Shown here: positions 17,590 to 54,200 of the stretch, piece after piece
Layout: the number at the start of each line of letters is the position of its first letter
How positions within the stretch are numbered: the stretch's first letter is position 1
Program-made: the position numbers and the translations under genes
Assembly (NCBI RefSeq): GCF_022568815.1
Contig: NZ_JAKZHX010000002.1
Coordinates: 124,001-188,000, forward strand
From: Undibacterium paludis
GTDB lineage: Bacteria > Pseudomonadota > Gammaproteobacteria > Burkholderiales > Burkholderiaceae_D
DNA: 64,000 nucleotides
Direction of reading: 5' to 3'
Notes under the pieces: generated by a model
The model's input: only the letters and a program-made list of their open reading frames with translations
Databases searched by the model: none
Told to the model about the DNA's origin: nothing

Positions 17590-19026
17590 ATGCATGCGAC
17601 TAATACAAAAACACAATGGGGACAATTTTTACCACTGGTGACAGTGTTTTTCTTCTGGGGTTTCGTTGCCGCCAGCAATGACATTCTCATCCCTGTCTTT
17701 AAACAAGCCTTCCATCTTAGTCAGGAACAAAGTCAACTCGTGTCCCTGGCTTTCTATGTGGCCTATACCGTGGGCTCGCTCATCTATTTACTGGTTTCGC
17801 ACTTTATTGGTGTTGATCTGGTCAATAAACTCGGCTATAAAAATGGCCTGGCGCTCGGATTGCTGATTTCTGCCGCAGGTACACTGTTGTTCTTGCCCGC
17901 AGCTAATACTGGTTCTTTCTCATTGATGTTGTCCGGCTTGTTTATTGTCGGACTGGGATTTTCGCTGCAGCAGACTGCCGCCAACCCTCTGGCGATAGCT
18001 CTGGGCTCATCCGAGACTGGTTCGCAAAGGCTGACTCTGGCCGGCGGTGTAAACAATTTTGGCACTACGATAGGTCCACTCATCGTCAGTTTTGCCATAT
18101 TTGGTGCACCTACCAGCATGAATCGTGAGCTTAGTATAGAGAGTGTCAAATTCCCCTATCTGATGCTGGGCGCAGCCTTTCTGCTGGTCGCCATCATGTT
18201 GAAGTTTTCGTCTTTGCCAGACCGCCCGGCCATACCGGCTAATGAAGGCGCGGGGCATGCCTCGGGCAAGCAATCGGCACTGCAATTCCCGCAGCTCGTC
18301 ATGGGCATGCTGGCCATTTTTGTCTATGTGGGTGTGGAAGTGTCTACTGCCAGTAATCTGCCTGCCTATATGGAAAGCAAACTGGGCTTGCAGACCAAGG
18401 ATGTTGCACCATTTATTTCTCTCTACTGGGCGAGCCTGATGATAGGACGCTGGACCGGGGCGGTTGAAGCTTTTGATGTACAGGCTGGCTTGGGCAAATT
18501 TTTCAAATTCCTGGCACCCTATCTGGCTTTCAGCGTATTTCTCATCGTTAATGCAATTGCCCAGCATGAGCTCAGTCAATTTTATGTTTATGCTGCCATT
18601 GTGTTGATACTGATCGCTGCCGACATGCTTAGCCAGGGCAATCCAGCCAAAATGCTGGGTATTTTCTCTGTATTGGGGGTTGCTGGCTTGCTCACAGGTA
18701 TGAGTTCCACAGGCATGGTCAGTGTCTATGCCTTTACCAGTATAGGCCTGTTCTGCAGCACCTTGTGGCCTTGCATTTTTACTCTGGCAATCAGCGGCCT
18801 GGGCAAGCACACGGGGCAAGGGAGCAATTATCTGATCATGATGATTATGGGAGGCGGCATAGTCAGCTGGCTACAGGGATTGGTGGCTGACAAAATAGGT
18901 ATACAGATGAGTTACCTGGTGGGAGTGGTTTGCTTTGCCTACCTCGCCTTTTATGCCTGGAGGGTGCAGGGTATCTTGCGTGCTCAGGGAATCAAGCTTG
19001 GCAAAACTGGCGCAGCCGCACATTAG
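17590..19026 (+). CDS. FHS-family (FucP-like) sugar:H+ symporter
   Basis: This 478-residue inner-membrane protein has about 12 hydrophobic segments. The FucP-type start is visible (FFFWGFVAASNDILIPVFKQ), along with LGFSLQQTAANPLAIALG and a VNNFGTTIGPLI motif, all typical of the fucose/glucose/galactose symporter branch of the MFS. Because the genes downstream convert mannose, mannose (or another monosaccharide released from N-glycans) is the most likely cargo. It has no clear Shine-Dalgarno. A terminator follows, so it is probably a single-gene transcript within the locus. Confidence 0.9.
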   Translation: MHATNTKTQWGQFLPLVTVFFFWGFVAASNDILIPVFKQAFHLSQEQSQLVSLAFYVAYTVGSLIYLLVSHFIGVDLVNKLGYKNGLALGLLISAAGTLLFLPAANTGSFSLMLSGLFIVGLGFSLQQTAANPLAIALGSSETGSQRLTLAGGVNNFGTTIGPLIVSFAIFGAPTSMNRELSIESVKFPYLMLGAAFLLVAIMLKFSSLPDRPAIPANEGAGHASGKQSALQFPQLVMGMLAIFVYVGVEVSTASNLPAYMESKLGLQTKDVAPFISLYWASLMIGRWTGAVEAFDVQAGLGKFFKFLAPYLAFSVFLIVNAIAQHELSQFYVYAAIVLILIAADMLSQGNPAKMLGIFSVLGVAGLLTGMSSTGMVSVYAFTSIGLFCSTLWPCIFTLAISGLGKHTGQGSNYLIMMIMGGGIVSWLQGLVADKIGIQMSYLVGVVCFAYLAFYAWRVQGILRAQGIKLGKTGAAAH

Positions 19027-19047
19027 GATTATTTTTTGAACAAGCAT

Positions 19048-19077
19048 GGCGCACCGTATCCGGGGCGCCTTTTTTTT
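19048..19077 (+). terminator. Rho-independent terminator after the transporter
   Basis: The GGCGC / GCGCC stem (19048-19052 with 19065-19069), with inner CC/GG pairing, is followed by eight T. It separates the transporter from the regulator gene 360 bases on; that gap holds no gene I can support. Confidence 0.85.
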
Positions 19078-19433
19078 ATTCTATTTGCTTGATGTGCAGG
19101 GCTGGCGCAGGATTAGTCTATTGTCAGAGCAACTTATGCCATCTTGTTTACTAAAATTAATAAACTGAGGCAAATTTCCAGCCGCTGATTGACCCTCATT
19201 TTTGGCGCCTGTATAAAAGAGATACTCTGAAAGACGCAGCATTTCCTGGCGATTTGGAGGCTGTCAAAAAAAGCTGATCCGTTTATTAAACCTTCTTTCA
19301 AGGATGTAGATCCGCAGGCAAATGCTGAAGATTGAGTGGTGTTGATAAACACAAAAAATGAAATAGCAATATAGAAGATGAATACCCGCTTTCAAGATAA
19401 AGAAACTGACATGAACAGCAAGGAGTTCACCCC

Positions 19434-20417: not shown

Positions 20418-20470
20418 AACATGGATTGTTACTCTGAGTTGATACTCCCATTACCATCACATTAACCTGT

Positions 20471-21700
20471 ATGCATTCTTTTCCTGACTTCAAATCCATT
20501 TCAGTCCTGACTGACCATATCAGTGACACGCTGAGTTTTTACTATCCGCGCAGCGTTGATGCCAGTGGCGGCTTCTATCACTACTTCAAGGATGATGGCA
20601 GTATTTACGACAGGCACAGTCGCCATCTGGTCAGCAGTACCCGCTTTGTCTTTGTGTATGCCATGGCCTATCGCCATTTTAAAAATTCTGTCTACCTGGA
20701 GCAGGTACGACACGGTGTGAATTTCTTGCGGCAAGTACACCGGGACACGGTAACCGGAGGGTATGCCTGGCAACTACATTGGGAGAATGCAAGCAAGACA
20801 GTCACTGATGGTGACAATCACTGCTACGGTCTGGCCTTCGTGATGCTGGCTTATGCCCATGCCCTGATGGCTGGTGTTGTAGAAGCACGCGATTATCTCG
20901 ACGAAACCATGGAATTGATGGAACGCCGATTCTGGGAGCCGCAACATGGTCTGTATGCCGACCAGGCCAGCGCCGACTGGCAGTATCTGGACAACTATCG
21001 TGGGCAGAATGCCAATATGCATGCATGCGAAGCTTTGCTCGCTGCTTACGAGGCGACTCATGACCTGCATTTTCTACATAGGGCCGAGACAGTGGCGCGC
21101 AATATCACGTTGCGCCAGGCCGCGCTGGCAGATGGACGTATCTGGGAGCACTACGATGTCAACTGGAACATAGACTGGAACTACAACCTGGATGACAAAG
21201 CCAACTTGTTCCGCCCCTGGGGTTTTCAACCAGGCCATTTTACCGAGTGGGCCAAGCTATTGCTGCAACTGGAAAGTCATTCTCAGCATCTGCAACATGA
21301 CAAGGAATGGTTATTGCCAACTGCTGAAGCTTTATTCCAGAAAGCCCTGCAATTTGCCTGGGATGAGCAATACGGTGGCATCTGCTATGGTTTTGCACCC
21401 GATGGCAGCATATGTGATGGCGACAAGTATTTCTGGGTACAGGCCGAATCCATGGCCGCGGCGGCTTTGCTGGCCAAACGCACAGGCAAGCAAAGCTATT
21501 GGGATAGTTACGAACACTTGTGGCAATACAGCTGGCAACACATGATAGACCATGAGTTTGGTGCCTGGTACAGGATTCTGTCGCGACAGAATCACAAACT
21601 CAGCGATGAAAAGAGTCCGGCTGGCAAAGTAGATTATCACACCATGGGTGCCTGCTATGAAATCCTGCGCGTCTTAAAGGAGGAGCAGCATGTCGGCTGA
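20471..21700 (+). CDS. AGE-family sugar isomerase, probable D-mannose isomerase
   Basis: This is a 409-residue (alpha/alpha)6-barrel protein of the N-acylglucosamine 2-epimerase superfamily. Conserved pieces include GGFYHYFKDDG, HLVSSTRFVFVYAMAY, the YRGQNANMHACEALLAAYEA helix, GFQPGHFTEWAKLLLQLE and the late VDYHTMGACYE. The three histidines in these last segments correspond to the catalytic set of YihS-type mannose isomerases. It would turn mannose into fructose in the cytoplasm. The adjoining fructokinase gene overlaps its end by 11 bases, which strongly supports this reading over N-acetylglucosamine epimerisation. Confidence 0.88.
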   Translation: MHSFPDFKSISVLTDHISDTLSFYYPRSVDASGGFYHYFKDDGSIYDRHSRHLVSSTRFVFVYAMAYRHFKNSVYLEQVRHGVNFLRQVHRDTVTGGYAWQLHWENASKTVTDGDNHCYGLAFVMLAYAHALMAGVVEARDYLDETMELMERRFWEPQHGLYADQASADWQYLDNYRGQNANMHACEALLAAYEATHDLHFLHRAETVARNITLRQAALADGRIWEHYDVNWNIDWNYNLDDKANLFRPWGFQPGHFTEWAKLLLQLESHSQHLQHDKEWLLPTAEALFQKALQFAWDEQYGGICYGFAPDGSICDGDKYFWVQAESMAAAALLAKRTGKQSYWDSYEHLWQYSWQHMIDHEFGAWYRILSRQNHKLSDEKSPAGKVDYHTMGACYEILRVLKEEQHVG

Positions 21701-22610
21701 TTTTCCCGTCATGCTCAGTGCCGGGGAGGCACTGACTGACATGATTGCCTGCGGTCCAGGCCAATGGCGCAGCGTTGTCGGTGGCTCGACCTGGAATGTT
21801 GCTCGCAGTCTGGCCAAACTGGGCCTGGCAACCGGCTTCGCCGGGGCAGTCAGCCAGGATTTGTTCGGACAGGAACTGGTGCGAGCCAGTACTGACGCCG
21901 GACTGGATTTGCGTTTGCTGCAGCAGTATGATCGTCCTCCGTTGCTGGCTATCGTCGGTGAGAGTACGCCGCCAAACTATTTCTTCATAGGCAGTGACAG
22001 CGCCGATTTGCATTTTTCTCCTGAACAGTTGCCGACGGGCTGGAGTTCACGCTTGCAATGGGCGCATTTTGGTGGCATCAGTCTGGCTCGCCAACCGCTG
22101 GCAGGCAAACTCCTGGGCCTGGCCCGTCAATTGAAGGCGCAGGGTGTATGCATTAGTTATGACCCGAATTTCCGTAACAATATGAATGCAGACTATGACG
22201 CCGTCCTGCGTGAAATGGCCCAACTGGCAGATTTGATCAAGGTTTCTGACGATGATCTGCGAGGCCTGTTCCGTTGCCAGGACGCAGACTATGCATTCAC
22301 GCAATTGCGCGCCATTAACCCTGCCGCCAAGGTTTTATACACTCGCGGTGAGGCGGGAGCTTCACTGCATGCAGATGGCCTGGCATGGCAGGCAGAGGCA
22401 CTGAAAGTGCCGGTTGTTGACACCATAGGTGCAGGCGACGCCAGCATTGCCGGTTTTATCTACAGTTCATATATGTACCCGGAAAGAGAGCCAGCAAGTC
22501 ACCTGCGCTTTGCCCTGGCTGCCGGTGCAGCTGCCTGTCTGGCCGCAGGAGCGCAAGCGCCAGGTCTGGAACAAATAGAGGCCTTATTTAATGGCCCGGA
22601 CAAAAAATAG
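21690..22610 (+). CDS. PfkB-family carbohydrate kinase, probable fructokinase
   Basis: This is a 306-residue ribokinase-fold enzyme. It begins with a GEALTDMI strand, has the GGSTWNVARSLAKLGLATGF sugar-site region and ends with the catalytic anion hole DTIGAGDASIAGF. It would phosphorylate fructose to fructose-6-phosphate, completing mannose entry to glycolysis. Translation starts at 21690 after a strong AAAGGAGGAG, inside the 3' end of the isomerase gene. The GH47 gene begins within 30 bases downstream. Confidence 0.9.
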   Translation: MSADFPVMLSAGEALTDMIACGPGQWRSVVGGSTWNVARSLAKLGLATGFAGAVSQDLFGQELVRASTDAGLDLRLLQQYDRPPLLAIVGESTPPNYFFIGSDSADLHFSPEQLPTGWSSRLQWAHFGGISLARQPLAGKLLGLARQLKAQGVCISYDPNFRNNMNADYDAVLREMAQLADLIKVSDDDLRGLFRCQDADYAFTQLRAINPAAKVLYTRGEAGASLHADGLAWQAEALKVPVVDTIGAGDASIAGFIYSSYMYPEREPASHLRFALAAGAAACLAAGAQAPGLEQIEALFNGPDKK

Positions 22611-22638
22611 AGCCATATTAGTGATAGAGGAGAACAAA

Positions 22639-24018
22639 TTGCTTATTAAACTATTGCCCCGCATACTGCTGGCGGCCACCTTGGGTATCAGCAAGCTGAG
22701 TCATGCGTCCACACAGGAGGTAGTCACAGAAAAAGAAGCAGCACAACTGGCGCAGCAAGTAAAAAACGAAACCAGGCATGCCTGGCAATCTTACAAACGC
22801 CATGCCTGGGGGCATGATGCACTGAAACCTCTGAGCAAGTCCGCACATGACTGGTATGCCAGGTCATTGTTGATGACACCGGTGGATGCACTCGATACCT
22901 TGTTGCTGATGGGTCTGAAGAATGAGGCGGACGAAGCACGAGAGCTGATTGCCAGCAAGCTCTCTTTTGACCAGGATATGGAAGTCCAGAACTTTGAAAT
23001 CACCATACGCCTGCTGGGTGGCTTGCTGTCATCCTACCAGATGACCCAGGACCCGAGATTGCTCAGTCTGGCAAAGGATCTTGGTCAGCGCTTGCTGCCA
23101 GTGTTTGAATCACCCACAGGCATGCCATATACCCACGTCAATCTGCGTACTGGCAAGGTGAGTGGCAAAGTCAGCAATCCGGCTGAAACGGGCACCTTGC
23201 TGCTGGAGTTTGGCATGCTGAGCAAACTGACTGGTAATCCTGTTTATTATGACAAGGCCAAACGGGCATTGGTCGCTACCTATGAGCATCGTTCCAAACT
23301 GGGCCTGGTTGGCTCGGCCATTGACGTTGAGACTGGCACATGGATTAACAAAGATGCCCACATAGGCGGTGGTATTGATTCTTACTATGAATATCTCTAC
23401 AAATGCTGGAAATTGTTCGGCGACCAGGATTGTAAAAACATGTGGGACAGCAGTATTCCGGGTGTCAACCAGTATTTGGGCGACGAGGTGCGCGGCGAGT
23501 TGTGGTATGGACATGCCGACATGGAGACCGGTAGCCGTAAGGCCAGTCAGTATGGCGCCCTTGATGCCTTCATGCCGGCGTTACTGGCATTGGGGGGAGA
23601 TGTCGATCGCGCAAAACGACTGCAGGAATCCAATTTGAAAATGTGGCGCCTGCATGGCACGGAACCGGAAGCACTGAACTACCAAACCATGCAAGCCACA
23701 TCGCCAGAATATGCACTACGTCCCGAAATCATTGAGTCTGCCTATTACCTGTATCACTACACAGGGGACAACAAGTACCGTGCAATGGGCAAGGAGTTCT
23801 TCCGTGATTTTGTCAAACGCTGCCGTAGTGAGGTCGGCTTTACCGCGCTCAAGGATGTGCGTAATGGCAGCAGGGAAGATTCGATGGAAAGCTTTGTGTT
23901 TGCAGAGACCTTCAAATACTTTTACCTGTTATTTGCACCCAAGGCGACCATCAATTTTGATGCTGTCACCTTCAACACTGAAGCGCATCCATTCAAGCAA
24001 GTACAACAAACAAAATAA
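22639..24018 (+). CDS. GH47 alpha-1,2-mannosidase, exported
   Basis: This is a 459-residue inverting glycosidase of a family best known from eukaryotic N-glycan processing. Visible landmarks are TPVDALDTLLLMGLKNEADE, NPAETGTLLLEFGMLSKLTG, HIGGGIDSYYEYLYK, LRPEIIESAYYLYHYTGD, SMESFVFAETFKYFYLLF and the calcium-binding end FNTEAHPF. The start was placed at TTG 22639, six bases after GAGGAG, which gives a clean signal peptide (LLIKLLPRILLAATLGISKL, then SHAS). The frame is open to 22591 without support. It would remove terminal alpha-1,2-mannose from Man9-type glycans in the periplasm, using Ca2+. Confidence 0.93.
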   Translation: MLIKLLPRILLAATLGISKLSHASTQEVVTEKEAAQLAQQVKNETRHAWQSYKRHAWGHDALKPLSKSAHDWYARSLLMTPVDALDTLLLMGLKNEADEARELIASKLSFDQDMEVQNFEITIRLLGGLLSSYQMTQDPRLLSLAKDLGQRLLPVFESPTGMPYTHVNLRTGKVSGKVSNPAETGTLLLEFGMLSKLTGNPVYYDKAKRALVATYEHRSKLGLVGSAIDVETGTWINKDAHIGGGIDSYYEYLYKCWKLFGDQDCKNMWDSSIPGVNQYLGDEVRGELWYGHADMETGSRKASQYGALDAFMPALLALGGDVDRAKRLQESNLKMWRLHGTEPEALNYQTMQATSPEYALRPEIIESAYYLYHYTGDNKYRAMGKEFFRDFVKRCRSEVGFTALKDVRNGSREDSMESFVFAETFKYFYLLFAPKATINFDAVTFNTEAHPFKQVQQTK

Positions 24019-24063
24019 ACTGACCGCTTCCCTGGCGGCAGCATGACAAAGGCAGGAGACAAA

Positions 24064-26505
24064 TTGAATATACGATCAACCTTGAGACATGCGACTGTCG
24101 TCGGCGTGATGGTGATGCTGACCAGCACCAGCGTGACCGGCATTGCATATGCAGATACAGCGAGAGACAAGAATTTCCCTGTTAATACTTTTATCGGTAC
24201 CCAGGATGACGGCAACACTTTTCCTGGGGCTGTTGCGCCCTTTGGCATGATACAGCTCAGCCCCATAGGTGAACACTACTCTGGCTGGCGTTATACAGAC
24301 CCTAAAATTCGTGGCTTTGGTCATTCCTTCCTGTCGGGTGCAGGATGCTGGGAGCAGGGGGGGCAACTCTCTGTCCTGCCCGTGACAGGAAGCATCAAGT
24401 CTGGCGGTAATTTTGATACCAGTAAGGCCGGCAGTTTTGACCAGAAAGTTTATGGTTCCAACTACTCGCACGATGGTGAAGTGGGGCAGGCTGGTTACTT
24501 CAAAGTCAGACTTACTGATTATGGCGGCATTACTGCTGAGACTACGGCGCTCACCAGAGCCGGCGCAGAGCGCTATACCTTTCATGAGAGTACAGAAACA
24601 GGCCATGTCCTGGTCAATATTGGCCAGGCAAATGAACGTCATTCGGTAGTAGGCAGCCATCTGCAAGTCATAGATGATCACACGGTAGAAGGCAAGATAG
24701 TTACTCGCAGTTTCTGTGGCGGTGCCCAATACACGACCTGGTTCAGGATGGAATTTGATCACGCTTTCCGTACGCATGGCATCTGGAATGAAAGCGGCGG
24801 AACGGAAGCCAGCATGCAATTGAGCCAGCAGGGCGACAGCAAACCCCATGGCGCCTGGTTCAGTTTCGATCTGAAGTCTGACAAAGCTGTCACCGCCATC
24901 AGTGCCATTTCACATGTTGATGCTGAAGGTGCACGACAAAATTTGCGTGCAGAAGGCAAGCTCAATGGCAAGCTACGCAGCTTTGACAACATGCGCAAAC
25001 AGGCACAGGATGACTGGAACAAGGAATTGTCCAGTGTCAGGATAGAAGGCGCCAATCCTGATGATCGCATCGTTTTCTATACAGCGCTTTACCATGCATT
25101 GTTGCAGCCGCTGACAGGCAATGACACGGATGGACGTTACCGTGGCTATGACGATGTCATCCACAAAGTGGACAAAGCAGCTAATTACTATGAGTTCTTT
25201 TCACTATGGGACACTTACCGTGCGCAGAATCAGCTCATCGCATTGCTGCGCCCAACCAGGGCACGCGATATTGCCGATTCAATCTTGAAAATACAAGAAC
25301 AGGCCGGCTGGTTGCCGCGCTGGGGTTATGCGAATTTTGAATCGAATGTCATGACTGGTGACCCAGTGACACCTTTCCTGGTTGACCTGTGGCGCTACGG
25401 TGCTCTGGCCGGCAAAGAAAAAGCCGCTTATGCAGCACTGCGTCAGAATGCCTTTGACGTACCCAGCTTCAAATTGCGATCAGAGGGGCGTGCTGGCAAT
25501 CCACAATACTTGCGCGACGGTTTTGTGCAATATGACAAAGGCTTCAGGGCAAAGGGTATGGACGTCGATCCCCATCATGGGGGTTCGGCAACCCTGGAAT
25601 ACGCTGTAGCCGATGGTGCACTTTCCTACATGGCAGAGGCGCTGGGTGAAAGGGGTGATGCTACCTTGTTGCGTCAGCGTGCACAGAACTGGCGCAAGTT
25701 GTGGGACAAGGACGCAATTGATAAAGAACTGGGATTCAAAGGTTTTCCCCGCCCCCGTCTGGAAAATGGAGCCTGGTACACAGAGCTGCAGGGACATTAC
25801 AATCCGCGTGCCGAACAAGGTTTTCATGAAGGTACGGCATGGCAGTATCAATGGCTGGTCCCCCAGGATACACAAGCTCTGTTTGCCGCAATGGGCGGTC
25901 GCGAGTCAGCAACCAAGCGACTGGATGCCTTCTTTGCCTTCGACGAAATCGAGAAAAACGATTACCAGGCAGTACGCAAGGATTGGGTCGTCGGGCCATA
26001 CAGCTACTATAATCAGTACCGTTACAATCCCAATAATGAACCGGATTTGCATGCCCCCTGGATGTATACATTGGCAGGCCAGCCCTGGAAAACCACGACA
26101 GTCTTGCGTGCCGCAGAAACCCTGTTCAGCAATGCCCCCAATGGCGTGACAGGTAATGACGATCTCGGCACCATGTCCGCCTGGTATATCTTCAGTAGCC
26201 TGGGTATCTATCCCTGGATGCCGGGCAGTGGCCAGTTTTTGCTGCATGCACCCAAATTTTCCAGGGTCGATCTTGATCTGGGAAATGGCAAGACGCTCAG
26301 TATAGAAAGTAAGGCAGCAGCACGTACGCCCATCCGGTATATCCACCAGGCGCAGTGGCAGGGCAAGCCGCTGACACGGGTATGGCTATCCTGGGAACAG
26401 ATACAGGGTGGTGGCAAACTTAGTCTGGATTTAAGTAGTGATGACAGGGCCAAGTCCTGGGGTAGTAGCTTGCAGGCTCTGCCACCCGGTGCTTTGGATA
26501 AGTAG
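24064..26505 (+). CDS. GH92 alpha-mannosidase, exported
   Basis: This is an 813-residue, Ca2+-dependent inverting exo-alpha-mannosidase. Family signatures are TFPGAVAPFGMIQLSP, GFGHSFLSGAGC, FFSLWDTYRAQNQL, the DVDPHHGGSATLEYA region, NNEPDLHAPWMY and GNDDLGTMSAWYIFSSLGIY. TTG 24064 follows AGGAGACAAA, the same arrangement as the GH47 start, and gives a signal peptide ending near GIAYADT; an ATG seven codons upstream is less well supported. It follows the GH47 gene by 45 bases and ends in a terminator. Together the two would strip alpha-mannose branches. Confidence 0.94.
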   Translation: MNIRSTLRHATVVGVMVMLTSTSVTGIAYADTARDKNFPVNTFIGTQDDGNTFPGAVAPFGMIQLSPIGEHYSGWRYTDPKIRGFGHSFLSGAGCWEQGGQLSVLPVTGSIKSGGNFDTSKAGSFDQKVYGSNYSHDGEVGQAGYFKVRLTDYGGITAETTALTRAGAERYTFHESTETGHVLVNIGQANERHSVVGSHLQVIDDHTVEGKIVTRSFCGGAQYTTWFRMEFDHAFRTHGIWNESGGTEASMQLSQQGDSKPHGAWFSFDLKSDKAVTAISAISHVDAEGARQNLRAEGKLNGKLRSFDNMRKQAQDDWNKELSSVRIEGANPDDRIVFYTALYHALLQPLTGNDTDGRYRGYDDVIHKVDKAANYYEFFSLWDTYRAQNQLIALLRPTRARDIADSILKIQEQAGWLPRWGYANFESNVMTGDPVTPFLVDLWRYGALAGKEKAAYAALRQNAFDVPSFKLRSEGRAGNPQYLRDGFVQYDKGFRAKGMDVDPHHGGSATLEYAVADGALSYMAEALGERGDATLLRQRAQNWRKLWDKDAIDKELGFKGFPRPRLENGAWYTELQGHYNPRAEQGFHEGTAWQYQWLVPQDTQALFAAMGGRESATKRLDAFFAFDEIEKNDYQAVRKDWVVGPYSYYNQYRYNPNNEPDLHAPWMYTLAGQPWKTTTVLRAAETLFSNAPNGVTGNDDLGTMSAWYIFSSLGIYPWMPGSGQFLLHAPKFSRVDLDLGNGKTLSIESKAAARTPIRYIHQAQWQGKPLTRVWLSWEQIQGGGKLSLDLSSDDRAKSWGSSLQALPPGALDK

Positions 26506-26540
26506 TTAGAATAGTTCAAATTTTTTGAAGCAGTAAATTT

Positions 26541-26578
26541 AAAAGCAGGGCCGATCATGGTCCTGCTTTTTGTTTTTT
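26541..26578 (+). terminator. Rho-independent terminator of the LacI-to-GH92 operon
   Basis: A perfect 9-bp stem AAAAGCAGG / CCTGCTTTT (26541-26549 with 26562-26570) is followed by TGTTTTTTT. Confidence 0.9.
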
Positions 26579-26613
26579 TAACTGCCCAAGGTACATTGTT
26601 GTGATGTACCGCC

Positions 26614-26778
26614 CTAAAATTTGGGCTGCTGGTGCAAAGCAGGCACCTCTGTGACACCGCTTTCTGCAACCAGTGCAGTCAGATTGTCCAGTCTGATGCC
26701 TGCACTGGCCATGACTATGTCATAGAGCATGACTTCACGCTCGGCCTCGGTAGAGAAAACCAACAGGATGTCTGCCAT
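26614..26778 (-). pseudogene. Probable C-terminal remnant of a CutC-like protein
   Basis: A 54-codon minus-strand frame from ATG 26778 to TAG 26614 contains YDIVMASAGIRLDNLTALVA followed by ESGVTEVPAL. This resembles the phosphate-binding C-terminal strand-helix of CutC (PF03932; pattern GxGI/VxxDN...VxxxGVxEhHAS). The barrel before it is missing. CutC genes are found in hexosaminidase loci of other bacteria, so this may be a deleted member of the present locus. The match is from memory and moderate. Confidence 0.45.
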
Positions 26779-26842
26779 CGGTTAGTCTCCAGCTTGCATA
26801 TGCCAATCTGCCTGATAACAGATTAGTCACGTCAATTTCACG

Positions 26843-29296: not shown

Positions 29297-29308
29297 TTGA
29301 TTTCCTTT

Positions 29309-31990: not shown

Positions 31991-32083
31991 GTTGAATCTC
32001 TGCATAAAGAAAGAGCATGGGTATTTCAAATAAGCAAGCGCACGACAAGGTCCATATGTAGCTGGAAATGGATGACAGGCAGT

Positions 32084-33967
32084 TTATTTCTGCAAGGTAT
32101 TGCGGATAACGCTACGCTGTATGGCGCTGCGCCTGCCCTCGGGGGTAACCGTCAGTACCTGTAAAACTCTTTCCTGTCCAGGTGGGGCCGCAATCTGCAA
32201 TGGGTGAAAATACTGGTGTGAGCTGGTATCGGGTGCGGTCCCGTCAAGGGTGTAATACATCTTGCTGCCCTTTACAGGGGGGAATAGTGCCAGTGTATAG
32301 GTTTGGTCTTTCGCATTGATTTGCGCTGGCATGCCACCAGGTCTGGGAATACGATATGCCAATCCTGCTTGCTGCAACCTGGGGTAATGACTGACCAGCC
32401 TTTGTTGGAAGCCGGAGTAATCCTTTCTTGCCGGTGCTGTCCATGCCACTTCTGCCATGGCGAGCAGGCGAGGGTAGGTCATGTATTCAATCATCTCTGG
32501 CTTGTTCAGGTATTCAGTCCAGATATTGGCTTGCACTCCTTTGATATGATCTTGTTCTACATCATTGAGAATGCCAGGTACGGGATTGTAGGCATATACT
32601 TTCTCGATGGATAATTCGCCCCCAAGCCCCCATGATTCCTGTTCGCCAGGGCCTTGGCCAGCATCAAAATAGCAATGACTGGTCGGGCTCATGATGACAT
32701 CATGGCCTTGTCTGGCTGCCGCAATACCGCCATCTTCTCCACGCCAGGACATGACGGTGGCGTTGGGCGCCAGACCGCCTTCCAGAATTTCATCCCAGCC
32801 TATCAGGCGCCTGCCTTTGCTGTTGATGAATTTTTCTATGCGGCGGATAAACCAGCTCTGCAATTCTTCTTCATTCTTGAGGCTTTCGCGTCGCATGATG
32901 TCTTGCGCCAACGCGCTATTCTTCCAGCGTGTTTTGGGAACCTCATCGCCACCAATATGCAGGTACTGGCCTGGGAACAAGGACATGACTTCGGTCAGCA
33001 CCTTTTCCAGAAACACGAAGCTGGCCTCGCTGGGGCAATAAATATCTTCAAATATTCCCCAGTTGGTTGCCACATCAAATGGTCCAGGTGTGCAAGCGAG
33101 TTCAGGGTAGGCCGCCAAAGCAGCCTGTGCATGACCTGGTAGTTCTATTTCTGGTACTACCGTGATATGGCGGGTGGCTGCGTAGGCAACCACTTCCTTG
33201 ATCTGCTCCTGAGTATAAAATCCACCATATGGTTTGCCGTCTCCCAGGTAAGGCTTTACATGCCGTCCAAGCGTGCTTTCTTTGCGCCAGGCGCCGACAT
33301 CAGTCAGTTTTGGATAGGCTTTTATTTCAATTCGCCACCCCTGGTCTTCGGTCAGATGCCAGTGGAAGGTATTCATCTTGTAGAAAGCCATCTGGTCGAG
33401 AAATTTCTTGATAAATTCCATGCTCACCATGTGTCTCCCAACATCCAGGTGCATGCCGCGCCAAGAGAAGCGCGGGCTGTCGACAATGCTGACAGCTTGC
33501 AAGTGCGCAATGGAGTTTGCCTTGACTGGTATCATTTGCAACAAGGTTTGCGTTCCATAGAACTGCCCGGCCGCGGCCCCTTTCAATTCGATGGAATGTG
33601 GCTGAATTGTCAGTGCATAGGCTTCAGCCTGATTTTGCTTACCCGCTTCATCCTGTTCTGTCCTGAAAAGCACATAATTACTTTCAGTCTTGTCAGGTAA
33701 TTTTTGTATGACAGCCAGTCTGAAACCCAGAACCTGCTCCAGTCTGTCGTTGAATAAACCAGCGTTCGTCAAAGCAACTGCATCACTGACGAACAGGCGG
33801 GTCTTGTCAGACAAGCGAAACTGACCGCGCCCCAACTGTTGATGAAACGGTTGAGGAATAAGTGTTAGCCTTGCCGGTTTCTCAATTCGCTTTTCCAGTG
33901 GTTTTGCAATTAAATTTGTACATAGGGCGCCGCATAGCGTGAGAACTGCCAAAACCTGGTAAGACAT
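32084..33967 (-). CDS. GH20 beta-N-acetylhexosaminidase, exported
   Basis: This is a 627-residue enzyme with a short signal peptide (VLAVLTLCGALCTNLIA), an N-terminal GH20b-like alpha/beta domain and the catalytic barrel. The catalytic pair is Asp341-Glu342 in YLHIGGDEVPK; FSWRGMHLDVGRHM, FHWHLTEDQGWRIEI, VPEIELPGHAQAA and MSWRGEDGG are family hallmarks. It would remove GlcNAc from the chitobiose core or from complex-type antennae. GGAG eight bases before the ATG supports the start. It heads the minus-strand operon; GH2 follows after 93 bases. Confidence 0.94.
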   Translation of the reverse strand: MSYQVLAVLTLCGALCTNLIAKPLEKRIEKPARLTLIPQPFHQQLGRGQFRLSDKTRLFVSDAVALTNAGLFNDRLEQVLGFRLAVIQKLPDKTESNYVLFRTEQDEAGKQNQAEAYALTIQPHSIELKGAAAGQFYGTQTLLQMIPVKANSIAHLQAVSIVDSPRFSWRGMHLDVGRHMVSMEFIKKFLDQMAFYKMNTFHWHLTEDQGWRIEIKAYPKLTDVGAWRKESTLGRHVKPYLGDGKPYGGFYTQEQIKEVVAYAATRHITVVPEIELPGHAQAALAAYPELACTPGPFDVATNWGIFEDIYCPSEASFVFLEKVLTEVMSLFPGQYLHIGGDEVPKTRWKNSALAQDIMRRESLKNEEELQSWFIRRIEKFINSKGRRLIGWDEILEGGLAPNATVMSWRGEDGGIAAARQGHDVIMSPTSHCYFDAGQGPGEQESWGLGGELSIEKVYAYNPVPGILNDVEQDHIKGVQANIWTEYLNKPEMIEYMTYPRLLAMAEVAWTAPARKDYSGFQQRLVSHYPRLQQAGLAYRIPRPGGMPAQINAKDQTYTLALFPPVKGSKMYYTLDGTAPDTSSHQYFHPLQIAAPPGQERVLQVLTVTPEGRRSAIQRSVIRNTLQK

Positions 33968-35154
33968 AGTGGAACTCCAATCAAACTGAAATGGAAACGC
34001 CAGAACAGATCTGGTGCGATGGCTGAAAGATTGGCCATCTTTATTGATGAATTTACATCAAGTAATCACGCTCAAACTTCTTTGACTGCATCAGGAAGGA
34101 GATGTCCATTATTTTGCTGCCAGATATGTGACTGGTCTTTTGAGTCTACCCAGGACAGTTGTGGTTCATGCGAATCCTTGCTCTCCAAGTACAAGGGTAA
34201 TTTGTTGTCCATATGATTCAGCGATGCTGAGTGTTCTTGTGTACAAAAAAATGGAAGAGATACAAGGCGCTGTTGATGGGTCATTATTGTCTCAATGGCA
34301 TGGTTTAATAAACGCAAGTATTTTTTGTTTTTGTCATTTTTTGCACTTGTGCAAGGCTTTTTCTTGATGAGATTTATATCGCGTCAACATGCTTACTTCA
34401 ATCGAATCAAAAAAATGACTGCTTGTTTATAACGTTCACTAAACAAAGGAGCTGTTATTTCAGGCCGAAACACACATATGGCAGGTGGAGATTTCGCTCT
34501 TACTGATCACGTGTACTTGATATTTCCACGTCCTTTGACATCAATGCTGCCCCTTATCCGGGTGTTAGTTGCGCCAATTGGGTATTTGTATTTGGGGGAG
34601 GGATTTTTTCAATCTGTGATTAAAGAAGAACAGCGATTGCCTGATCGAGGAGTAGGTTGATGATGTACACCGCACTTGCACCATTCACTCAGGTACAGAC
34701 ATTTTAACGAGCAAGCCAGACGTCAATGGATGTAAGCCAGGACCAAAAACGAATGGAAAATGTGTCCTGAAAAATTAAGCATATCGATTCATGCCATGTC
34801 AAAGCGCAAAGACTTCCTTTTCAAACTATCGTCAGCGAAATAATGCGGCAAAATCACCACACCGCCAATCTCACTTTTGTTTACTAATCAAGCTAAACTT
34901 CATCTTAACTTTCAAATTTTATTGGATCGCTGAATTTTTTTTTGTATAAACATCTCTGGGTGTAATGCGATGCCCAACGACATGCAGATGGTGGCTGTGT
35001 CGTTTAGTAAATCGTCGGAACTCTCACTAATTTGCGCTGTATGCAAATTGGGAAAACGAACAGATGCGGAGGGCCATCGCCTGTTCCAGGAGTGAAGAGA
35101 AACCTGCCATCGCCAGATAATAAGCCCGCCGTTGGGCATAACCAGGAGACATAC
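33968..35154. other. Long intergenic region between GH20 and the TonB receptor
   Basis: Nearly 1.2 kb without a supportable gene separates the two divergent transcripts, so both promoters must lie here. It is AT-rich from 34300 to 34480 and 34880 to 34950. A small palindrome TTGCAC-TT-GTGCAA sits at 34341-34354. Frames at 34072-34317 (minus) and 34478-34660 (plus) look partly protein-like but match nothing I know; they may be remnants. Confidence 0.45.
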
Positions 35155-38100
35155 ATGAGCTTCAGAACCCGTTTCGCTTCACATCAGCACCGTTGTCGCG
35201 CAACACCTATCGCCATGGCGGTGGGTACCGCATTGTTGGCCTTTTCTACAGCACACGCGCAAACTGAACCGGTTAAAAAAGCAGTCGAAAAACCAACAGA
35301 GAAGCCGGTGGAAACAAATCAACCAGCTTCTGTGGTCGTGACCGGCTATCGCTATTCGATTGAGCAAAGCCTTGATCAAAAGCGTGCTGCCAACGCGATT
35401 GTTGAAGTGGTCACAGCCGAAGATGTCGGCAAATTTCCCGACAAGAATGTGGCCGACGCGTTGCAGCGTGTGCCAGGTGTAGTCGTTAACCGCAGCGGCG
35501 GCGAAGGCAAGAATGTCAGCGTACGCGGCCTGTCGTCAGAATTGACGCTGACACAATTGAATGGCAATTACATTGCGACAGCTGAATCCAACGGTGATCC
35601 TACGCGGTCCTTCAATTATATGCTGATGCCGTCGAATATGCTGTCGACCGCCGAGCTGTTCAAGACACCAGAAGCGCGCCTCGACGAAGGAGGTATTGGT
35701 GGCACCGTGATCCTGCGTACGCGTCGCCCGCTGGAAGTGAAGTCCAACAGCGGCTTTGTCTCGGCAGAAGGAACCTGGGCTGACACCAGCAAAAAGGTTG
35801 ATGGTCAGTTCTCAGGTCAGTATGCGTGGCATGATGAAGACAATCGTCTGGGTGTGCTGGTCGGCTATACCCAGCAGAAGCGAACCACCCGCACCATGGG
35901 CGCCAGTACAGAAAACTGGCAGTGGTATGCTGATGATTATAAAGCCCACCCAGCAGTGGATGTCAATGGTGCGCCATCTGGCCTGAATTCGCGCTGGTGG
36001 GGGCAGTCTGGCTTTTACGATCAGAACGGCAAGTACTACAGTAATTTCATGATGCCGACGTCAGTCAATCTTGACGTCAAGAACGAAGATCGCGAACGCA
36101 AGGGTGGACAACTGACGCTGCAATTCAAACCAGAGCGTAACCTGACGTTGACTGCCAACTACTTCCGTTTTGATCTGTCGCAGAACTCGCAAACCAACAC
36201 GCTGAAAATACCGGAATGGAACCTGGCGCGCTATGACGGCGACGGCAACTGGCCCGGAGGTCGCATGCTCGACGGCCTGACCTTCGACCGTAGTGGCACG
36301 ATCGTCACCGGGGCCCAATACAGCGCACACGCAGGTAAGACTTACTACTGTAGTGGCAATGCGGCGGCGGCAGGTGGTATCAAGAATACCGGTGGTTTTG
36401 GTCCGGATGACTGCACCATCCCGACACCACAGATCACTGGTAGTTATAATCGCGAACGTTCGCTGTCGCAGACTGCAGATTTTGAAGCGGAGTGGCGTGG
36501 CAAATCGCTGGACGCAAGCTTCAAGGGCGGTCGTACCTGGGCCAGCGGCGGCCCGGAGATGCAGTTCACCATGCCAATCAAACCGCGCCTGCAAAACGCC
36601 GACAGCAGCTATACGTTGGGTAACTATGCCAGCTCCTGGAGTACGGTTGGGACTCCAACCATGACATTCTCACCTCAACTCATGGCGAACCTGCAAAAAG
36701 GAATCGGGGAAATCGATCTGGGCTCAACCTCATCGTCATGGACCAAGAACAGTACCGAACAAAAGTACGCGCAGGCCGATTTGACCTGGTATGCCGACGG
36801 CAACTGGCTTGATTCCTTGCAGTTTGGCGTCAAATACCGTGATGGTGGCACTCACCGTAGTACAGGAAACAATTACTGGGCTTGTAAAGGCACCGATGCA
36901 AGCAACTACGACAATCGTTACCAGGCTGGCTGCGATGCCAGCGCCTCCAGGTTCCAGCCTGGCTTTCTGTACCCCACGTCGCTGAACAATATAGTGGGTG
37001 GCTTCAGTGCCAGTGCATTCCCCGCGATTAATTTCCCGGCTTATATCGCATACCTGAATCAGACCTACGGGCAGATGCAGACTCGTAACGAAGACAACTT
37101 TGTGTATAACGTCAGCGAGAAGATTACTGCTGCTTATTTACAAGCCAATATCAAGACTGAGCGTCTGCGCGGAAATGTAGGCATGCGACTGGTGCAGACC
37201 AAGCAACATGCTGATTCGACTGATCAGGTTGACTATTATAACGATTATTTTTTCAATGGTACCAACGGCACGCCGGCACCATGTCGTGCGGGTGGCTTGC
37301 CAGCCAACGGCGCCCCAGCGGGTTCAGGTTGTGTGAGTGGCTATACGACGCTGCCAGATAGTATCGCGCGCAGTTCGTCGTTTGTGGTCAGTTCGCTTGA
37401 TCGTAGCTATACAGATATATTGCCGAGCTTTAACCTGGCCTATGACCTCAGCGACAAACTGTTGCTGCGGGCAGCAGCCTCCAAGGTAGTAGCGCGGCCC
37501 GGCTATGGTGATATCGCTTCGCCCGGCAGCCTGAATTATTATAGCCAGGAGTATGTCAATGACCGTCGCTTGATTGGCGGTGGCGACCAGCAAGGCTGGT
37601 TCGGCCAGGGTAGTAACAAGGCGTTGGAACCATACAAGGCCACACAGTTCGACCTGGGTTTGGAATGGTACTTTCATCGCGGTTCAGTATTAGGTGCAGG
37701 TCTGTTCCGTAAAAACGTCAGCAACTTTGCAGTACCAGTCGTGCTGAGCATGCCGATGATTGTGGGTGGTAATACCGTGACGGTACAGAATTATTCCACC
37801 AGCGCTGGCGGTCGGGACGCAGTATCGCAAGGTATCGAGTTGTATGCACAGCATACGTTCAGTTCCGGCATAGGTTTTCAGTTCAACTATACGTACAATA
37901 ATACTAACCAGGCTGCAATCACACTTTCGAATGGCAAGGAAATTGGCAAGTCACCGCTAGTTGGTAGCGCCAAGAATCAAACCAACCTCACTGTCTTTTA
38001 CAGCAATGATCAATATCTGGTACGAGCATCGTACAACCGGCGTGGCGAAGTGGTTGGTGGTCTGGTCAATGGTTTGAATGTGTATCAGGAACCGTATAGT

Positions 38101-38277
38101 CAACTGGATCTGAATGCGGCCTACAACGTTAACAAACAACTGAGTCTGACCGCTTCGGTGCTTAACCTGACCCAGGAAGAGTCAAGTTCTCATCTCGGCA
38201 ACGACACCAAGGACCGTTTTTACTCTAGTGGTTACGCTGGTCGGGTTGTGTACGTCGGTCTGAACTACAAGTTCTGA
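35155..38277 (+). CDS. TonB-dependent outer-membrane receptor
   Basis: This is a 1040-residue protein. The start at 35155 has CAGGAGA upstream and opens a signal peptide (AMAVGTALLAFSTAHA-Q). A short P/E/K-rich linker leads to a TonB-box-like VVVTGYR, a plug domain (FPDKNVADALQRVPGVVVNR, VRGLSSELTLTQLNG, GGIGGTVILRTRRP) and a large beta-barrel ending in aromatic YVGLNYKF. It belongs to the CarB-like/oligosaccharide-type receptors that are common in glycan loci. I infer uptake of N-glycan-derived oligosaccharides. No N-terminal STN signalling domain is seen. Two strong hairpins separate it from the halogenase gene. Confidence 0.93.
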   Translation: MSFRTRFASHQHRCRATPIAMAVGTALLAFSTAHAQTEPVKKAVEKPTEKPVETNQPASVVVTGYRYSIEQSLDQKRAANAIVEVVTAEDVGKFPDKNVADALQRVPGVVVNRSGGEGKNVSVRGLSSELTLTQLNGNYIATAESNGDPTRSFNYMLMPSNMLSTAELFKTPEARLDEGGIGGTVILRTRRPLEVKSNSGFVSAEGTWADTSKKVDGQFSGQYAWHDEDNRLGVLVGYTQQKRTTRTMGASTENWQWYADDYKAHPAVDVNGAPSGLNSRWWGQSGFYDQNGKYYSNFMMPTSVNLDVKNEDRERKGGQLTLQFKPERNLTLTANYFRFDLSQNSQTNTLKIPEWNLARYDGDGNWPGGRMLDGLTFDRSGTIVTGAQYSAHAGKTYYCSGNAAAAGGIKNTGGFGPDDCTIPTPQITGSYNRERSLSQTADFEAEWRGKSLDASFKGGRTWASGGPEMQFTMPIKPRLQNADSSYTLGNYASSWSTVGTPTMTFSPQLMANLQKGIGEIDLGSTSSSWTKNSTEQKYAQADLTWYADGNWLDSLQFGVKYRDGGTHRSTGNNYWACKGTDASNYDNRYQAGCDASASRFQPGFLYPTSLNNIVGGFSASAFPAINFPAYIAYLNQTYGQMQTRNEDNFVYNVSEKITAAYLQANIKTERLRGNVGMRLVQTKQHADSTDQVDYYNDYFFNGTNGTPAPCRAGGLPANGAPAGSGCVSGYTTLPDSIARSSSFVVSSLDRSYTDILPSFNLAYDLSDKLLLRAAASKVVARPGYGDIASPGSLNYYSQEYVNDRRLIGGGDQQGWFGQGSNKALEPYKATQFDLGLEWYFHRGSVLGAGLFRKNVSNFAVPVVLSMPMIVGGNTVTVQNYSTSAGGRDAVSQGIELYAQHTFSSGIGFQFNYTYNNTNQAAITLSNGKEIGKSPLVGSAKNQTNLTVFYSNDQYLVRASYNRRGEVVGGLVNGLNVYQEPYSQLDLNAAYNVNKQLSLTASVLNLTQEESSSHLGNDTKDRFYSSGYAGRVVYVGLNYKF

Positions 38278-38285
38278 GTGCGCTG

Positions 38286-38347
38286 CCTCCCCGTGCCGCG
38301 AGGTAGGGGAGGTGTCATTACCGGCAGCCGCCAACTCTGCGGCTGCC
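38286..38347 (+). repeat. Two tandem intercistronic stem-loops without a T run
   Basis: CCTCCCC/GGGGAGG (38286-38292 with 38306-38312) is followed by the perfect 9-bp GGCAGCCGC/GCGGCTGCC (38323-38331 with 38339-38347). Both lie between the receptor stop and the halogenase start. With no T tract they are more likely mRNA-stabilising or attenuating elements than terminators. Confidence 0.8.
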
Positions 38348-38369
38348 GCCATCTTTTCTGGATGTCGCA

Positions 38370-39881
38370 ATGACTACGAACAACAGGATCAGTAATATCA
38401 CAATTATCGGTGGCGGCAGCGCGGGATGGATGGCTGCAACCGCATTGGCCACCTACCTGGGCAAGGGGGCTGCAATTCGTCTGATCGAGTCTGAGGAGAT
38501 TGGCATCGTTGGCGTAGGTGAGGCCAGTGTTCCGCATATCAGGTTGTTCAACGGACAATGGCTGGGCATAGACGAAACCGAGTTTGTCAAACACACCCAA
38601 GCTACAGTCAAACTTGGTATTCAGTTCAATGACTGGGCGCGCATAGGCGACAGCTATATTCACGGCTTTGGTGCAATCGGTCGTTCACTGGGGCCGTTGC
38701 CGTTTCACCAGTTCTGGTTGAAACTGTTCCTGTCCGGGCGTGCCATGCCGATTGGTGATTATTCACCGCAAACAGTGATGGCGCCTCGCGGCAAGTTCGC
38801 GCCAGGCGACCAGAATGCGGCACCCAATTCACCGCTGGCCGACATCGCCTATGCCTATCATTTTGACGCCACTCTGTACGCACACTATTTGCGTGAACTG
38901 GCAGAAAACCGTGGTGTCCAGCGCATCGAAGGCAAGATTGTCGGTGTGAAGCAGCGCACCGGTGACGGCTTTGTCGAGTCGGTGACGATGGAAAACGGCA
39001 TAGTTGTCGATGGCGAATTGTTCATCGATTGTTCCGGTTTTCGCGGACTGCTGATAGAGCAAACACTGAAGACTGGCTACATTGATTGGACACATTGGTT
39101 GCCGTGTGACCGTGCTCTGGCAGTACCCAGTGAAAATGTTGAACCGATTCCACCCTATACTCGCGCCACTGCATGCGCGGCCGGCTGGCAGTGGCGTATT
39201 CCGCTGCAGCAGCGTGTCGGCAATGGCTACGTGTATTCAAGCAAGCACATCGGGGATGAGGAAGCTGCTGTGACACTGCTGGCTAACCTGGATGGCAAAA
39301 CACTGGCCGATCCACGCCAGTTGCGCTTCACTGCCGGCATGCGCAAGAAATTCTGGAAGAAGAATGTGGTGGCATTGGGACTGGCCAGCGGCTTTCTCGA
39401 GCCACTGGAGTCGACCAGCATTTACCTGGCGCAGTCCGGTATCACTCGCTTGCTGAGTCTGTTTCCCAAATGTGATTTCAATCCGCTGTTGGCTGAACGA
39501 TATAATCGTGAATCCATGATTGAGTACGAGCGGATCCGTGATTTTCTGATCTTGCACTACCACGCGACAGAACGCAACGACACGCCATTCTGGAACGATT
39601 GTCGCACGATGCCTGTCCCGGACAGCTTGAGGGAAGCCATCGAACTATTCCGTTACGACGGGCGCTATTTTCGTAACGGTGAAGATTTTTTTGCGTTACC
39701 TAGCTGGGTTCAGGTAATGCTGGGGCAGCGTATCGTACCACAAGCTTACCATCCGATCGTCGACGAGATGCCTGAAAGCAGACTGGTTGAATTTGTGGAA
39801 GGTATGCGCACGACACTGGAGCACGCTGCAGCCGTTATGCCTACGCACCAGCAGTGGATAGAGAGGTACTGGAAAGCATAA
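38370..39881 (+). CDS. Flavin-dependent (tryptophan-)halogenase family protein
   Basis: This is a 503-residue FAD enzyme. It has the dinucleotide motif IIGGGSAGWMAATALA, the GVGEASVPHIRLF strand, a lysine in the TVKLGIQF segment that corresponds to the catalytic Lys of PrnA-type halogenases, and a GWQWRIPL motif equal to the family WxWxIP. These features predict halogenation of an aromatic substrate with FADH2, O2 and halide, with a separate reductase. Homologues beside TonB receptors are common in Xanthomonadales and Caulobacterales glycan loci, where their substrate is unknown. It is 92 bases after the receptor, so probably co-transcribed. Confidence 0.9.
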   Translation: MTTNNRISNITIIGGGSAGWMAATALATYLGKGAAIRLIESEEIGIVGVGEASVPHIRLFNGQWLGIDETEFVKHTQATVKLGIQFNDWARIGDSYIHGFGAIGRSLGPLPFHQFWLKLFLSGRAMPIGDYSPQTVMAPRGKFAPGDQNAAPNSPLADIAYAYHFDATLYAHYLRELAENRGVQRIEGKIVGVKQRTGDGFVESVTMENGIVVDGELFIDCSGFRGLLIEQTLKTGYIDWTHWLPCDRALAVPSENVEPIPPYTRATACAAGWQWRIPLQQRVGNGYVYSSKHIGDEEAAVTLLANLDGKTLADPRQLRFTAGMRKKFWKKNVVALGLASGFLEPLESTSIYLAQSGITRLLSLFPKCDFNPLLAERYNRESMIEYERIRDFLILHYHATERNDTPFWNDCRTMPVPDSLREAIELFRYDGRYFRNGEDFFALPSWVQVMLGQRIVPQAYHPIVDEMPESRLVEFVEGMRTTLEHAAAVMPTHQQWIERYWKA

Positions 39882-54189: not shown

Positions 54190-54200
54190 AGGTGATCAGC

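Follow-up and report, generated by a model that had tools for sequence, protein, structure and literature searches.

A LacI-associated locus of Undibacterium paludis with a predicted enzyme set for oligomannose N-glycan catabolism

Gene content and predicted operators of the locus

The window analyzed here is a 64,000-nucleotide stretch of the Undibacterium paludis genome (G000:C12:124001-188000; source genome 6.5 Mb), and its positions 17590-39881 hold eleven genes, all open reading frames, which apparently form one regulon under one shared predicted operator. An earlier reading made from the letters and translations (the sequence-only reading) had named these genes and their families, including five glycoside hydrolases (GH). 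The assignments were confirmed, as each gene passes the Pfam cut-off of its named family and the catalytic motifs of the hydrolases are intact. Signal peptides had also been claimed for the hydrolases, and a crude look at hydropathy found an N-terminal hydrophobic stretch in all five and none in the cytosolic enzymes. The features are as follows, with bit scores from Pfam.

17376..17395, predicted operator O1, GTTTAGTAAAAACTATAAAC, about 195 bp before the transporter gene, with similar sites in relatives
17590..19026, + strand, major facilitator superfamily (MFS) sugar transporter, GluP/FucP-like (MFS_1, 51 bits)
19146..19165, predicted operator O2, GTTTACTAAAATTAATAAAC, before lacI, with the identical 20 bases in the related loci L001-L004
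19434..20417, + strand, LacI-family regulator (LacI, 45 bits; Peripla_BP_3, 117 bits)
20471..21700, + strand, D-mannose isomerase-like protein of the AGE superfamily (GlcNAc_2-epim, 385 bits)
21690..22610, + strand, PfkB fructokinase-like protein (PfkB, 121 bits), with an 11-bp overlap with the isomerase gene
22591..24018, + strand, GH47 class I alpha-1,2-mannosidase (425 bits), with a 20-bp overlap with the kinase gene
24043..26505, + strand, GH92 alpha-mannosidase, probably not alpha-1,2 (488 bits)
26557..26751, - strand, remnant (scar) of a CutC gene, from tblastn and blastn pieces
26843..29296, - strand, GH31 alpha-glucosidase of a locus-specific type (388.5 bits)
29309..32029, - strand, GH2 beta-mannosidase (GH2 N-domain, 179.5 bits, and both mannosidase immunoglobulin-like domains)
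32084..33967, - strand, GH20 beta-N-acetylhexosaminidase (400 bits)
34425..34444, predicted operator O3, GTTTATAACGTTCACTAAAC, on the GH20 side of the divergent gap
34879..34898, predicted operator O4, GTTTACTAATCAAGCTAAAC, on the receptor side of the divergent gap
35032..38277, + strand, TonB-dependent receptor of the TonB-Xanth-Caul subfamily (TonB barrel, 129 bits)
38370..39881, + strand, tryptophan-halogenase-like flavoprotein, paired with the receptor (Trp_halogenase, 644 bits)

By geometry, the rightward unit runs lacI-isomerase-kinase-GH47-GH92 with a gap of 24 bp between the last two genes, and the transporter gene is a separate unit. The leftward unit GH20-GH2-GH31 has gaps of 54 and 12 bp, and the receptor and halogenase-like genes run rightwards out of the 1.06-kb gap that they share with GH20. 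The receptor, whose translation probably begins at the ATG near 35155, scores 744 on the NCBIfam model TonB-Xanth-Caul (cut-off 310), and the transporter passes the NCBIfam gluP model (220.5 against a cut-off of 202.55) and stays below that of fucP (169.7 against 280.4). The locus genes have 50-56% GC and the flanks 47 and 50%, giving no island signal. The nearest named relatives at the locus are Undibacterium umbellatum, U. pigrum and U. crateris, with a GH47 identity of 85-89%, and a metagenome-assembled genome (MAG) from groundwater carries a GH47 that is 89% identical to that of the window.

The palindrome GTTTA-N10-TAAAC, first seen when the intergenic gaps were read, is repeated in the gaps of the locus. 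The window contains four copies against 0.04 per shuffle (0 of 100 window shuffles reach four), the whole genome has six places, four of them in the locus, against 16 for a backwards-pattern control, and in 200000 random placements four of six sites never fell within 17.5 kb; as the palindrome was drawn from the four locus sites, these window and genome statistics are not independent, and the independent support comes from relatives. In G060, a single-contig genome, the regulon pieces are scattered over four places with a site before each, and five of its eight sites precede the transporter, isomerase, GH20-GH2, lacI-GH92b and receptor-halogenase genes. Among the sites listed, those at regulon genes number four of five in both G035 and G032 and four of seven in G012. 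Telluria and Massilia loci (L005, L008) have a site before the receptor. Across 26 named GH47 loci from public genomes, with flanks examined up to 10 kb a side, the exact operator is present in nine (at least one site each). All 18 genus genomes scanned hold 1-9 sites, and in every one of them the backwards control gives more; five genomes that lack GH92 (G063, G004, G066, G015, G011) hold 1-3, likely as background.

Three sites were set aside as chance occurrences. C4:77173 in the source genome coincides in part with the end of an open frame located upstream of a GH18 gene, and C10:54681 comes after a frame resembling a glycosyltransferase by eye; both were judged so because the five sites of G035 avoid the contigs of its full-profile GH18 genes. 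The site G025:C55:132 precedes unrelated genes (HI0933-like, carbonic anhydrase). The alpha-mannosidases, the beta-mannosidase and the hexosaminidase stand behind a common predicted operator, and the regulon includes an outer-membrane uptake receptor.

Predicted roles of the hydrolases and the mannose route

The closest solved relative of the window GH47 is CkGH47 of Caulobacter K31 (PDB 4ayo, 274 bits), in which we take E121 and E365 to be the acid and the base. Its numbering was anchored on the alignment via 8b5m, which differs at L310. The available part of the literature on this enzyme lists D249, R363 and L310 as active-site residues (PMC10685318). All five residues have identical partners in the aligned window GH47, so that the protein has both the profile and the catalytic residues of the family. 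Its columns E136, D263, L324 and E379 hold the same residue in all 30 tblastn matches from the 34 loci compared, a set in which a few genomes are counted twice (L002/L071, L010/L112), and T463 is kept in 29, the remaining match being too short.

For the window GH92, the only one in its genome, the best solved relatives are, in order, 7zgm, then 6f8z and 6f91, which we take to be BT3130 and BT3965, and then BT3990 (2wvx). The part of PMC5930347 available describes BT3130 as likely alpha-1,3-specific, BT3965 as alpha-1,4-specific, and Trp88/His584/Glu585 as the alpha-1,2 triad of BT3990. The window GH92 lacks this triad and has Gly/Trp/Val at those positions in an alignment whose loops are uncertain. 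Since the alpha-1,2 triad is missing by alignment, the data are most simply read as GH47 having taken over this linkage; GH47 thus probably handles alpha-1,2-mannose and GH92 the remaining linkages. GH125 and GH38 were found in none of 43 genus genomes (controls positive in 1/14 and 4/14), so the removal of alpha-1,6-mannose would fall to the only GH92 of the genome.

The beta-mannosidase 6bye is the best solved relative of the GH2 protein (898 bits). Of the two catalytic glutamates of the window GH2, one is conserved in all 22 matches and the other in 21, the exception lying beyond the end of its match. The GH20 glutamate is kept in 3/3 matches and the aspartates of the GH31 motifs WNDMNE and TGDNTAD in 5/5, and we assume catalytic roles for these residues. 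The isomerase is closest to the solved structures 3gt5 (551 bits) and 5x32 (486 bits), which the depositors name N-acyl-/N-acetylglucosamine 2-epimerase. From the best family matches of the isomerase and the kinase, a route from mannose via fructose to fructose-6-phosphate is likely.

GH31 proteins were compared in 23 genus genomes: ten GH47-positive (nine from the family search and G060 from the stretches examined there), nine GH47-negative by the family search, and four others (G061, G062, G063, G066). Within G061, counted among the other 13 although it has a GH47 fragment, the isomerase gene is followed by only 119 amino acids (aa) of GH47 (L102:12373-12732), a probable case of locus decay. 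The locus type of GH31 (388-394 bits) occurs in five of the ten GH47-positive genomes, always inside the GH47 locus, and in 0/13 others. Below these scores the highest is 303, and a second type, at 281-303 bits, is present in 20/23 genomes. Its representative in the source genome, 28% identical to the locus GH31, lies at C67 in a receptor-halogenase-MFS-GH13-GH31-glucokinase locus, which is plainly a starch-type route. A role of the locus GH31 as the starch enzyme is improbable given this separate locus with its own GH31 and the confinement to GH47-positive genomes; the combination of GH13, GH31 and glucokinase is also absent, there being no GH13 among the locus genes. The halogenase-like flavoprotein adjoins the receptor both here and in the starch-type locus (L138, 56% identical), as a recurring partner of TonB sugar receptors, and no such gene lies within 9 kb after the receptor in the related locus L070.

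A glucokinase gene (PF02685) follows GH31 on the same strand in U. pigrum, U. umbellatum and the groundwater MAG and is itself followed by a CutC gene; apart from the window there are four loci with GH31, and three of them thus have a glucokinase in that operon. In the window gap, tblastn matches CutC at 26557-26751 (E 9e-6 and 0.004 with a 3.5-kb subject; 2e-4 for the first match over the whole window), and blastn adds several matching DNA pieces. No trace of a glucokinase gene was found in this gap. By this comparison the glucokinase is lost from the window operon, with a CutC scar left behind, and the glucokinase of the starch locus could substitute for it. A CutC gene, of the "copper homeostasis" family, also precedes lacI in the GH47 locus of Stenotrophomonas daejeonensis (L019:1119-1859, 55%) and seems to travel with these genes.

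Two further genomes of the ten carry GH63 near GH47. G009 has the GH20-GH2 pair followed by a YgjK-type GH63 protein in place of GH31 (557 bits to YgjK). In G029 a fragment of this protein (72% over 119 aa) lies at the end of the contig that carries GH47. The exchange of GH31 and GH63 in one setting suggests that alpha-glucose removal is wanted at these loci. The glucose-cap step is the bold part of our interpretation and is drawn entirely from genomics.

Occurrence in related genomes

The comparison with Undibacterium and its relatives that the sequence-only reading had proposed showed that the grouping recurs, that the operator is shared by some loci and that the locus type of GH31 keeps to GH47-positive genomes. 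Within the examined flanks of the 26 loci, GH92 is found in 23, the isomerase in 22 and GH2 in 19. Within the same flanks, L023 (a 6.3-kb contig) and L025 (Streptacidiphilus) have none of the other ten genes, and the two Pseudoxanthomonas loci L015 and L026 show no GH2. Stenotrophomonas has GH47, GH92, isomerase and GH2 together, with a LacI and a transporter only about 31% identical to those of the window. In the genus, 9 of 36 genomes (counting the source genome) contain GH47, and in the order 0 of 24; in the class, GH47 exceeds the cut-off in 3 of 369 genomes, again counting the source genome, and is full-length in two of these.

The large proteins encoded next to GH20 in G017 and G060 proved to be sensor kinases and were dropped. 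Beyond the locus, 46231-50274 encodes a 1347-aa protein with an AMP-binding domain, a carrier-protein site and a hexapeptide-repeat region, and L070 has a 1341-aa frame on the corresponding side of the locus. At 52582-57359, a Y-family polymerase-like (IMS) gene and then a DNA polymerase III alpha gene resemble the ImuB-DnaE2 mutagenesis pair.

Oligomannose N-glycans as the probable substrate

The best reading of these data is the exo-trimming of high-mannose, perhaps glucose-capped, N-glycans, and we give a probability of roughly 0.7 to the locus being a LacI-controlled regulon for oligomannose N-glycan catabolism. This interpretation follows from the joint demand for alpha-mannosidases, a beta-mannosidase and a hexosaminidase, which to our knowledge only the Man(alpha)-Man(beta)-N-acetylglucosamine (GlcNAc)-GlcNAc core commonly makes. 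The core structure is also found in the available part of PMC11180146. Glycans or glycopeptides would enter via the TonB receptor, and periplasmic exo-enzymes would trim them from the non-reducing end: GH31 would remove alpha-glucose caps where present, GH47 alpha-1,2-mannose, GH92 alpha-1,3- and probably alpha-1,6-mannose, GH2 beta-mannose and GH20 GlcNAc, with the roles of GH47, GH2 and GH20 taken from family specificity. The MFS symporter would import mannose, perhaps glucose, and the predicted isomerase and fructokinase would pass mannose via fructose to fructose-6-phosphate. LacI, acting on the palindrome before all transcription units, may keep them repressed as long as a product, probably mannose, is lacking.

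The sequence-only reading had noted that neither an endoglycosidase nor a peptide:N-glycosidase (PNGase) to release the glycan lies in the window, and had pointed to the rest of the genome; none is among the locus genes. Profile searches for GH85 and PNGase A gave matches in 0/43 genus genomes each (control positive in 1/14 for each), and that for the PNGase F C-domain likewise in 0/43, with a silent control. The source genome has four GH18 proteins, all on contigs other than the locus contig and none convincing as a releasing enzyme. Two are full-length profile matches (270.8 and 260.5 bits) and probably chitinases, and the third, a CBM5/12-GH18 protein, adjoins the second of these. The fourth (310 aa, L060:3707-4639) has the motif DGFDFDME and no signal peptide by hydropathy, and its best solved relative is a chitinase (E 0.0035). 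GH18 proteins of relatives (L063, L064) match an EndoS-type barrel weakly and lie on contigs other than the GH47 loci. The one at L063:4101-5456 aligns with a chitinase-related agglutinin and jacalin, with matches to jacalin-type lectins in its C-terminal part; it is possibly a carbohydrate-binding chitinase or an endoglycosidase.

Release may be due to one of the GH18 proteins, to another enzyme or to neighbors, or may not be needed: since exo-trimming can reach GlcNAc-Asn, an endoglycosidase need not exist, and an aspartylglucosaminidase would then be called for. The alternative that survives best, a live possibility at somewhat below even odds and compatible with our interpretation, is that the locus scavenges free oligosaccharides or glycopeptides already released by microbes or a eukaryote, and that intact glycoprotein is never attacked. 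It gains from the searches above, in which no secreted endo-beta-N-acetylglucosaminidase or PNGase was identified, and loses by the fact that another family or a GH18 could perform the release, for example the 310-aa protein, in which no signal peptide was seen.

Several observations weigh against N-glycan catabolism as set out above. The first is the lack of an identified releasing endoglycosidase or PNGase, in the locus and in the genus-wide profile searches. A single GH92 would need to serve both alpha-1,3 and alpha-1,6 linkages. The solved relatives of GH31 span several specificities, so that its specificity is not readable from sequence; U. crateris (L003) has GH31 but neither glucokinase nor CutC in that gap; and in the stretches of G060 that were examined, GH20-GH2 has no glucosidase next to it. 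Within the examined flanks, GH31 is present in 4/26 loci and GH20 in 3/26, and both are regarded as accessory because they are missing from most loci. The best of the three NCBIfam models matched by the isomerase is D-mannose isomerase NF051846 at 228.9 (cut-off 600), and that of the kinase is fructokinase at 124.9 (cut-off 450). Because both fall below the cut-offs, the substrates are likely rather than certain, and of the earlier claim of a route from mannose to fructose-6-phosphate the gene set stands while the exact substrates come from the best models only. Among the sites listed, a minority lie at regulon genes in some GH47-positive Undibacterium genomes, namely G029 (3/8), G009 (2/7) and G027 (1/5). 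Within the examined flanks the exact operator is absent from 17 of the 26 loci, among which are the nine Stenotrophomonas loci and the four Duganella/Pseudoduganella/Massilia arenosa-type loci L009, L016, L022 and L024, and a looser palindrome scan of eight of the 17 (L009, L011, L013, L015, L016, L022, L024, L026) found none; given this absence, the Stenotrophomonas and Duganella-type loci must be regulated otherwise.

An unlikely alternative is the use of fungal mannan or mannoprotein, with the alpha-mannosidases serving mainly long fungal alpha-mannan and the beta-mannosidase and GH20 as minor helpers; some GH92 enzymes do act on high-mannose N-glycans and yeast mannan alike, according to the available part of PMC5930347. 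Against this stand the lack of GH125 and GH38 in the 43 genus genomes, the absence of any alpha-mannanase family from the locus genes (no genome-wide search was made for GH76 and GH99), and the placement of the beta-mannosidase and GH20 in one operon behind the common operator. It is more improbable still that the locus gathers enzymes for unrelated oligosaccharides, namely plant mannan ends (GH2), starch oligomers (GH31), chitin ends (GH20) and alpha-mannosides (GH47/GH92), since, although each of these families has members for such substrates and many related loci lack GH31 and GH20 in the flanks examined, one predicted operator serves all units, the separate starch-type locus has its own GH31, GH13 and glucokinase, no beta-mannanase is among the window genes scanned, and the GH18 genes are on other contigs.

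Judged by its genes, the locus is in concept an N-glycan utilization locus. The sequence-only interpretation holds by genomics for the enzyme set, the exported hydrolases, the mannose route with substrates taken from family matches, and the likeness to the Xanthomonas N-glycan cluster. Its statement that every bond of Glc1-3Man9GlcNAc2 is covered was too strong: in the endoplasmic reticulum (ER) it is GH63 that cuts the outermost Glc-alpha-1,2 bond, and no GH63 is among the locus genes, while alpha-1,6-mannose hangs on one GH92. In eukaryotic ER trimming of N-glycans, glucosidase I is GH63, glucosidase II GH31 and ER mannosidase I GH47. By family membership, the locus resembles this line in enzyme families and kind of substrate, and differs in being bacterial, periplasmic and catabolic. 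A wider and rather doubtful proposal is that Undibacterium and its kin have a catabolic periplasmic counterpart of the ER line (GH31 or GH63, then GH47), specialized on immature glucose-capped oligomannose glycans and working by exo-enzymes without an endoglycosidase, in one LacI regulon that may be scattered or gathered.

The cluster of Xanthomonas campestris (nix) likewise combines, in a proteobacterium, a TonB receptor with serial hydrolases for N-glycan bonds, and the available part of its description bears out the earlier view of a similar concept with a different enzyme set (PMC5700972). That part gives nix an alpha-fucosidase, a beta-galactosidase and a hydrolase cutting between GlcNAc residues (NixE, NixL, NixF; PMC5700972), none of which is among the locus genes, so that the locus is not a member of that type. 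The polysaccharide utilization locus PUL72 of Bacteroides thetaiotaomicron, as far as the parts available describe it, also couples receptor uptake to periplasmic removal of alpha-1,2-, alpha-1,3- and alpha-1,6-mannose (PMC11180146; PMC10154615). It has a surface GH18, SusC/D and GH92 enzymes, and its final trisaccharide goes to enzymes outside the PUL (PMC11180146, available part). Here, GH47 would replace the alpha-1,2 GH92, the beta-mannosidase, hexosaminidase, glucosidase and mannose catabolism are inside the locus, and no releasing enzyme is among its genes.

CkGH47 shares its active-site residues with the window GH47, and no physiological pathway is named for it in the available part of PMC10685318. 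A 2023 review, in the part available, gives GH38, GH92 and GH125 as the exo-alpha-mannosidases characterized for high-mannose glycans in bacterial N-glycan breakdown (PMC10154615), and its main text does not contain the words GH47, GH31 or GH63. Among the titles listed in searches of open-licence papers, of which one search was aimed at Undibacterium, none deals with such a locus.

In summary, the locus is real, coherent and better supported than the first reading could show. It brings together enzyme families better known from the eukaryotic protein-folding machinery, offers a physiological setting for bacterial GH47 with an order of reactions that can be tested, and suggests the use of glucose-capped glycans. 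The operator makes the regulon predictable in related genomes, and the genes could yield a matched enzyme set for trimming glycoproteins.

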